The translations under genes and the position numbers were made by a program. A stretch of 64,000 nt of DNA from Bretschneidera sinensis. Its lineage: Eukaryota; Streptophyta; Magnoliopsida; Brassicales; Akaniaceae. Every line of letters begins with the position of its first letter. Positions within the stretch are counted from its first letter, which is position 1. Of this stretch, positions 41,615 to 42,173 are shown piece by piece. The stretch spans positions 57,860,501 to 57,924,500 of the forward strand of contig CM043697.1 in the NCBI GenBank assembly GCA_023935145.1. Direction: 5' to 3'. The notes below the pieces were generated by a model that saw only the letters and a program-made list of their open reading frames with translations, made no database searches and had not been told where the DNA came from.

Positions 41615-41824
41615 TTTCGAGAAATTTGAAGTTTTTGGAAAAAGGAAATTTGGTAAAAATGAGAGATTGTAACCGTAGAAAGTTAAAAATCTCTTTAGGA
41701 ATGAGTAGATCGGTGTGTTTAGAAGGGATTTGGATGATTTTTAGATCAAAAAGATGAATTTTTCTAGAGAGAGAAAGCTTGGGCTCTTTGAAAATGGCGT
41801 AAAGAGGGCGAAAATGAACAGTCC

Positions 41825-41832
41825 CTTTTATA
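41825..41832 (-). promoter_or_regulatory. TATA box of the extra-ORF promoter
   Basis: CGCGATTCTATAAAAGGGAC on the minus strand lies about 210 bp upstream of the ORF start and 12 bp downstream of the palindrome array. The corresponding site in A (TCGCGATTCTATGTATAG, about 48932-48950 on +) has decayed. Confidence 0.65.
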
Positions 41833-41843
41833 GAATCGCGATA

Positions 41844-42173
41844 CCAGTCGACTGGGTAAACTTACCAGTCGACTGGGCCCTTTTGTAAAGATGAACAGTT
41901 TCTCTTACCAGTCGACTGGGTAAACGTACCAGTCGACTGGATCAACTGACAGTGAGATACCAGTCTACTGGGCTATCGTTACCAGTCGACTGGGGGTTCA
42001 AAAAAAATTTGGCTCCAAGTATGATTTGATTTTATAGACGACTGGAGAAGACTTACCAGTCGTCTGGAGTTTTTGGCAGAGAGTTACCAGTCGACTGGGT
42101 CAAAATTACCAGTCGACTGGAAAAACAGGCAGAGACTTACCAGTCGACTGGAGAACATTTACCAGTCGACTGG
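41844..42173. repeat. CCAGTCGACTGG palindrome array in front of the extra ORF
   Basis: Sites start at 41844, 41865, 41908, 41929, 41960 (one mismatch), 41982, 42034 (half site), 42056 (one mismatch), 42087, 42109, 42140 and 42162. Spacings are 21, 43, 21, 31, 22, 52, 22, 31, 22, 31 and 22 bp. This is the same motif and spacing rule as in the LTR, between the pol stop codon (42314) and the TATA box. Confidence 0.95.

Follow-up and report, generated by a model that had tools for sequence, protein, structure and literature searches.

The genome of Bretschneidera sinensis harbours, within the 64,000-nt stretch of contig CM043697.1 that was analysed here (the window), an LTR retrotransposon with an additional open reading frame downstream of pol. 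The question raised by this locus is how the accessory ORF (aORF) can be transcribed, and whether its expression is tied to that of the genomic RNA. The original prediction gave the aORF an LTR-like promoter of its own, controlled by the same factor as the LTR.

A young Sirevirus nested within an older relative

The features of the locus are listed in Table 1. The young element, at 48800-38547 on the minus strand, is a Ty1/copia retrotransposon (Pseudoviridae) of the Sirevirus type. Pfam searches showed the order of domains of a Ty1/copia pol, with gag_pre-integrs, rve and RVT_2 in sequence and the aORF after pol, and the only Pfam trace in the ORF between gag and pol was a zinc knuckle (19.6 bits, with a cut-off of 20.8). 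Bousios et al. (2010; PMC2829016) describe two signatures of Sireviruses, ATTGG/TATCAGAGC at the primer binding site junction and AGGGGGAG with AT/TG as the polypurine tract. The junction is present as CA/ATTGG/TATCAGAGC, reading ...CTACA ATTGG TATCAGAGC with ATTGG from 47546, and the polypurine tract is followed by AT and TG. A second exact octamer is located at 40013-40020, giving two exact copies in the young element versus three to five per linker in the table of PMC2829016.

The host element lies on the plus strand, and its LTRs are about 70% identical to the young LTRs. The insertion site of the young element lies within one of the boxes before the aORF of this older relative, where the duplicated TATCC (38542-38546 and 48801-48805) overlaps the box. 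With substitution rates of 1.3e-8 or 7e-9 per site and year, LTR divergence dates the young insertion to approximately 0.03-0.06 million years and the old one to 3.8-7 million years. Regarding other features, no tRNA genes were found in the window and no RNA family reached the gathering score in 30000-54000. Positions 3512-4403 hold an array of a 48-bp unit (18.6 copies) in which CCGAGCGTTTGA and TCAAACGCTCGG half-sites form inverted repeats; one strand of it has no stop over 231 codons, and the opposite strand none over 250.

Table 1. Position of the features of the young element and of its older host in the window.
Feature	Position	Strand	Evidence or remark
Young element
5' LTR, 1254 bp	47547..48800	-	1 difference from 3' LTR
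Primer binding site region ATTGGTATCAGAGC	47533..47546	-	Sirevirus signature
gag	46739..47494	-	Pfam Retrotran_gag_2, E 7.3e-31
pol ORF (integrase, RT)	42314..45436	-	Pfam RVT_2 E 9.8e-78, rve, gag_pre-integrs
Distal half of internal array (42162, 42140, 42109, 42087, 42056, 42034)	42034..42173	-	Also in the aORF-less L006 and L007
Second TATA-like string TATAAAA, merged with degenerate 12th box	42030..42036	-	
Proximal half of internal array (41982, 41960, 41929, 41908, 41865, 41844)	41844..41993	-	
Conserved block TATCGCGATTC, then TATAAAAGG (TATA box of the putative internal promoter)	41824..41843	-	11 bp from last box in 9 of 9 arrays, TATAAA in 8 of 9
Accessory-gene leader, including pyrimidine tract CTTTCTCTCTCTA	41615..41823	-	ATG-free
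Accessory ORF, 418 aa, Pfam Transposase_32 (PF20167), long C-terminal helix	40358..41614	-	E 3.6e-15
Terminal polypurine tract AGGGGGAG, then AT/TG	39803..39810	-	Sirevirus signature
3' LTR, 1254 bp	38547..39800	-	1 difference from 5' LTR; TSD TATCC both sides
10 exact boxes, 3' LTR array	39225..39489	-	5' LTR equivalent at 48225-48489
LTR TATA box TATATAAA	39122..39129	-	5' LTR copy at 48122-48129
Older element
5' LTR, own array of 8 sites at 32190-32398	31875..33073	+	90.8% identical to own 3' LTR
Internal array, left part, split by young insertion	38411..38546	+	
Internal array, right part; TSD overlaps a box	48801..48931	+	
Accessory ORF, broken	49165..50434	+	70.7% and 62.7% aa identity, two pieces
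3' LTR	51113..52280	+	90.8% identical to own 5' LTR

The box array, the TATA box and the leader

The box is the 12-bp palindrome CCAGTCGACTGG, and twelve sites are found at 41844-42173, before the aORF. Nine of them are exact (41844, 41865, 41908, 41929, 41982, 42087, 42109, 42140 and 42162), those at 41960 and 42056 have one mismatch and the one at 42034 has three, with spacings of 21, 43, 21, 31, 22, 52, 22, 31, 22, 31 and 22 bp in ascending order. All twelve sites and eleven spacings agree exactly with those first claimed. In the whole window, boxes with up to three mismatches were counted 66 times versus 9.39 on average (sd 2.93) over 100 dinucleotide shuffles, and exact boxes 35 times versus 0.0008 expected from base composition, which rules out a chance origin. 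The box is also the commonest palindromic 10-mer (36 copies; the next has 5) and 12-mer (35 copies; the next has 4) of the window, and no other repeated palindrome has more than two copies in its first 31 kb.

A TATA box had been placed 12 bp downstream of the array, followed by a leader of roughly 200 bp and the ATG. The TATA box TATAAAAGG is present at 41832-41824, but it begins 11 bp past the last box; the ATG is at 41614, 218 nt from the TATA box, so that 41617, given as the limit of the region, sits just before the ORF. Transcription would start at about 41800 (-). From 42157 to 41615 there are no ATG triplets in 543 nt, as in a fraction of 0.021 of 1000 shuffles, which is weak evidence because the old copy carries ATGs in its array region (three in the right part and one in the left); the leader alone is no evidence by itself, since 0.78 of 2000 shuffles are also ATG-free. 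Furthermore, the degenerate twelfth site (42034-42045) overlaps the TATA-like string CCAGTCGTCTATAAAATC. The same TATAAAA appears in the copies L005, L006 and L009, and TATAAGA in L008; it was not seen in L007, L029, L034, L043, L044 or the old copy.

Conservation among copies of the family

Paired exact boxes 20-22 bp apart occur at 14,776 places in the 1.21-Gb genome, and a reversed control pattern at none. The copies sampled were four pieces from this genome-wide doublet search and 40 fetched by place. Among them, seven further putative internal promoters were found, three with an aORF 96-99% identical to the young one (L005, L008 and L009) and four at 67-74% (L029, L034, L043 and L044), which together with the young and old copies make nine internal arrays. 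The place of the TATA box, located through GATT[CT]TAT with up to three mismatches allowed in the last box, is 11 bp past this box in all nine. TATAAA is intact in eight, including copies whose aORF identity is down to about 67%, and the old copy has TATGTATAG instead. The block between the last box and the TATA box is GGTATCRYGATTY in seven of the nine, GGTGTC in L005 and AGTATC in the old copy.

Comparison of the young and old elements showed that boxes are more conserved than the spacers between them. Internal boxes are identical at 33/36 and 44/48 positions, versus 23/33 and 32/48 in the spacers; against the old 3' LTR the values are 89/96 and 60/114, and against the old 5' LTR 82/96 and 59/113. 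Overall, the boxes of the diverged copies are 85-93% identical and the spacers 52-70%, a count that covers the 7 of 12 young internal boxes and 8 of 10 LTR boxes with an aligned old partner, the distal internal alignment having been ended where it became unreliable. The two LTRs of the old element record the decay since insertion, with 84/96 positions identical in boxes and 101/113 in spacers; hence, boxes are not harder to mutate, because both old LTRs lost boxes and spacers alike. The boxes were instead maintained for as long as the family was alive.

The LTR arrays

In the LTRs, the distance from the last box to CTATATAAA is 93-95 bp in 11 of the 14 loci scanned, and the LTR TATA pattern had no match in L010, L011 and L025. 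The sequence GCTATATAAAC at the LTR TATA box is identical in the young LTR and both old LTRs. As in the RM boxes of Sireviruses, which are palindromic, have at least eight copies and precede both the LTR TATA box and the env-like gene, there are 10 boxes per LTR and 12 internal ones; the CGG-CCG core of those boxes is not found, the box here being CCAGTCGACTGG.

The similarity between LTR and internal spacers is not above that of shuffles (77 and 106 of 300 were as good, in the two orientations), so that a recent origin of the internal array by copying from the LTR was rejected for either orientation. It is therefore likely that one factor acts at both places, as originally proposed, since the boxes are identical and the spacers have no homology above shuffles.

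Spacing and helical phase

When periods of 5-30 bp were scanned, the young arrays, LTR as well as internal, fitted best at 10.55-10.6 bp, which is near one helical turn of DNA, and the old arrays at 10.35-10.45 bp, not at 10.55. At 10.5 bp, none of 20,000 random placements was phased as well as the young LTR or the young internal array, 10 of 20,000 were as good as the old 5' LTR and 156 of 20,000 as the old internal array. Nevertheless, TRF detected 53-bp tandem units in both arrays, from which many boxes come, so the phasing of repeated units is not independent and a test on the interval classes only is fairer: 321 of 200,000 random four-class sets were as close to whole turns.

The LTRs of 13 relatives provided 89 intervals of 21 (25), 22 (23), 31 (27), 50 (1), 51 (4), 52 (7), 53 (1) and 74 bp (1), of which only the classes other than 20-22 bp are unbiased because most loci were found through 20-22-bp doublets. 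One LTR was taken per element, leaving out partner LTRs, the overlapping L002-L004 and the broken L010. The nine internal arrays gave 72 intervals: 21/22 (38), 31 (18), 42/43 (7), 52/53 (2) and 60-63 bp (7). The gap between half-arrays varies, being 52 bp in the young copy, 60-63 in seven other copies and 59 in the old one. The off-phase intervals are one of 30 bp in the 5' LTR of the old element, those of 50 bp in L013 and in each LTR of the old element, and the 59 bp of its internal array. Most box spacings are near whole helical turns.

CpG retention

The ratio of observed to expected CpG was computed with the boxes masked. In the young element it is 53/77.6 in the leader and aORF and 16/21.0 in the LTR past the array, versus 44/165.0 in gag, pol and the U3 and linker ahead of the arrays (p = 5e-6 and 8e-4, respectively). 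The old copy presents the same split (50/73.0 versus 26/137.9), and its LTRs have 10/19.3 and 11/18.2 past the array versus 1/7.1 and 1/7.4 ahead of it. Within each array the shift falls on the side near the TATA box, and the far side is still CpG-poor; the tail past the aORF has a middle value (6/14.0), and one of the LTR windows is as low as 0.38. Both promoter domains were spared much of the CpG depletion seen in the rest of the element. Codon usage may account for part of the CpG of the aORF, but not for that of the leader or the LTR. The GC3 of the aORF is 0.50 versus 0.25-0.32 in gag and pol (pol 0.25), suggesting that its origin or the selection on it may differ. In sunflower SIRE elements, CG methylation is reduced over the centre and peaks at the boundaries (PMC12844716); this pattern is not what a reading based on CpG retention predicts and counts against it.

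Copies without the accessory gene

Two copies, L006 and L007, match the young element in C-terminal pol (96.6% and 93.5% identity) and continue with a distal half-array of six sites each (up to three mismatches). From GGAGCCA onward they share a sequence that is not the accessory gene: the best tblastn match of the aORF to them had an E of 1.2, and both pieces extend into the 3' LTR. Their LTR-bearing stretches carry five or six box sites; in one pair they are 99.7% identical over 1251 columns, with a further piece at 98.5% over 480, and in the other pair 97.1% identical over 1714 columns. The linker pieces of this subfamily, from 1459 in L006 and 1221 in L007, are 93-96% identical and have the same start point between the half-arrays.

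The accessory protein

Compared with the old copy, the aORF shows a dN/dS of 0.227 over 412 codons, indicating purifying selection; the values for gag, pol and the ORF between them are 0.114, 0.141 and 0.534. It is open in L008, in L009 and across the 371 codons covered of L005. In L029, L034, L043 and L044 the codon aligned with its ATG is ATA or ATT, the ORF has stops, and no in-frame ATG was found upstream of the aligned start codon before a stop. A box-like string lies in both accessory ORFs, at 41239-41250 (two mismatches) and 49529-49540 (one mismatch), over KPSPLA codons; extra boxes at the gene start have been reported for Osr10 and HOPIE (PMC2829016).

Residues 1-100 of the protein are basic (pI 10.3) and 276-418 acidic (pI 4.6). 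There is no transmembrane segment (top 19-residue Kyte-Doolittle mean of 1.19), and a retroviral-type envelope was rejected on this ground. AlphaFold models reached a mean pLDDT of 38.7 (alone) and 36.1 (six-row alignment), and a helix of about 60 residues (approximately 349-413) is the only part modelled with some confidence; coiled coils have been described for Sirevirus env-like proteins (PMC3414828). Neither the sequence search nor these low-pLDDT models showed a DNA-binding fold, and the search for solved relatives by sequence returned only two weak ribosomal matches (E 0.22 and 0.31). In viral contigs no aORF or pol relatives were confirmed and no box doublets were found, and in species genomes no aORF relatives were confirmed.

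A probable internal promoter, a probable shared factor and the alternatives

Taken together, the box and spacing classes shared with the LTR, the fixed distance to the TATA box, a CpG-retaining domain and conservation across copies uphold the idea of a promoter proper to the accessory gene, and one that is likely built like that of the LTR. Quite probably, the stretch 42173-41615 (-) functions as an internal RNA polymerase II promoter, where a dimeric and likely host-encoded factor would co-activate the genomic RNA and the accessory mRNA. It would be modelled on the U3 promoter of the element and consist of two helix-phased clusters of palindromic operators, a TATA box at an invariant distance of 11 bp and a leader devoid of ATG. 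The dimer, most likely supplied by the host, could occupy boxes on one face of the helix, perhaps cooperatively, in the LTR and in the internal array, so that the genomic RNA and the short accessory mRNA would be turned on together. A host factor is favoured because arrays persist in L006 and L007 and in four published Sireviruses that carry the LTR motif and have no env-like gene.

It had also been suggested that the accessory protein itself binds the palindromes, and the protein as the shared factor is possible but not favoured. By binding the LTR and internal boxes, it could strip silencing marks or activate transcription, in the manner of the VANC proteins of VANDAL elements. This is rather unlikely, even though a single short motif is arrayed in non-coding regions beside an accessory gene in both cases (PMC5735166, PMC10398659), the protein has a basic N-terminus, an acidic C-terminal part, a predicted helix able to dimerise and no transmembrane segment, and the CpG-retaining domains begin inside both arrays. 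VANDALs are DNA transposons, the VANC21 site YAGTATTAY is not palindromic, and binding by the encoded protein has been demonstrated there, whereas it is a hypothesis here. Moreover, a DNA-binding fold was not found in the poorly modelled protein, the aORF-less copies keep their distal and LTR arrays, although action in trans could explain them, and the four gene-less Sireviruses of PMC2829016, listed there for having the motif, carry it in the LTR. The box motif is also the same in the most diverged relatives covered, those with an aORF at 67-74% identity (L029, L034, L043 and L044), unlike the diverging target motifs of VANC proteins (PMC5735166). A more specific version, also unlikely, is that dimers of the PF20167 protein, joined by the C-terminal helix, occupy the phased palindromes and keep both promoters unmethylated, CpG retention being an indirect trace of this; the protein would then activate its gene together with the genomic RNA, and act in trans on copies that have no aORF.

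The accessory protein could instead be translated from spliced LTR RNA, with no promoter role for the array. There is an acceptor-like CTTTCTCTCTCTAG at 41764 and TTTTTCCAG within the array at 42117, and splicing of env-like genes has been reported or predicted in other plant elements (PMC2829016, PMC7264820). Nevertheless, TAG past the pyrimidine tract is present in only four of the nine copies (young, L005, L008 and L044), versus eight with TATAAA, and splicing leaves the phased boxes and the 11-bp rule unexplained; this alternative is unlikely.

It is very unlikely that the palindromes act as RNA, their boxes pairing into long hairpins of the genomic RNA that would serve packaging or give rise to small RNAs. 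Palindromic structures of Sirevirus LTRs have been linked to siRNA in maize, and the array folds at -144.9 kcal/mol versus a mean of -85.5 in 100 shuffles (z -11.15). However, good folding is expected of any array of palindromes, spacing by whole turns would have no purpose in RNA, and the LTR array is upstream of the TATA box and so would lie outside the 5' end of the genomic RNA. Finally, functionless by-products of tandem duplication, to which the 53-bp units of both arrays could point, are hardly credible given that boxes are kept while spacers diverge, a difference absent in the decay after insertion, and that the TATA box stays at a constant distance.

Relation to known systems

An internal array before an env-like gene is not new in kind, having been reported earlier for Sireviruses. 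In PMC2829016, palindromic repeats were described in 13 Sireviruses; they precede the env-like gene in the nine of nine elements with both and are not found in the linker of the four of four without the gene, a split that by our own arithmetic would arise by chance once in 715, and six further elements with an env-like gene are without repeats. According to PMC2829016, an internal promoter was proposed in 2002; the authors of PMC2829016 discuss it and could not conclusively identify it. Like the boxes studied here, the RM boxes are palindromic, present in many copies, clustered before the LTR TATA box and the env-like gene, and associated with CpG islands, and the RM of Vitis, CGGTCGACCG, differs by a single symmetric change from the inner 10 bp of the present box. 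On the other hand, all RM boxes except that of Tnd-1 have the CGG-CCG core, which is absent from CCAGTCGACTGG. Their CpG islands are bounded by boxes and end near the last one, whereas the retention observed here continues through the leader and the ORF. Helical phasing and a fixed distance to an internal TATA box were found here; in the available text of PMC2829016 the latter does not appear, and the word "helical" occurs only in the title of a reference.

Other plant elements share some of these features. Gene23 of Grande (Gómez-Orte et al. 2013, as cited in PMC7264820) is also a 3' internal accessory gene with its own promoter, and its product is a nuclear protein; however, it is antisense, belongs to a maize LTR element of another lineage, and no shared LTR operator appears in the available text of PMC7264820. 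The TRP28 of Retand is likewise encoded between pol and the 3' LTR and is thought able to bind DNA, and about half of the Retand elements have tandem repeat arrays, but this is an antisense ORF (Pfam PF04195) of a Ty3/gypsy element (PMC11963269). The sunflower Athila aORF is 3', sense and related to PF20167 (partial similarity), although Athila is a Ty3/gypsy element and not a Sirevirus; nuclear localisation was predicted there (PMC11728184).

What the present analysis adds to the knowledge of these elements is a box lacking the CGG-CCG core, a constant distance to the TATA box, helical phasing, a control for decay, CpG retention beyond the boxes and copies devoid of the aORF. With a defined TATA box, the 11-bp rule and a phased operator, the putative internal promoter becomes testable. 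Each exact box contains GTCGAC, the SalI site, so the CpG methylation of the boxes could be read by a simple digest. Moreover, the 12-bp box could be used as bait to look for the putative shared factor.
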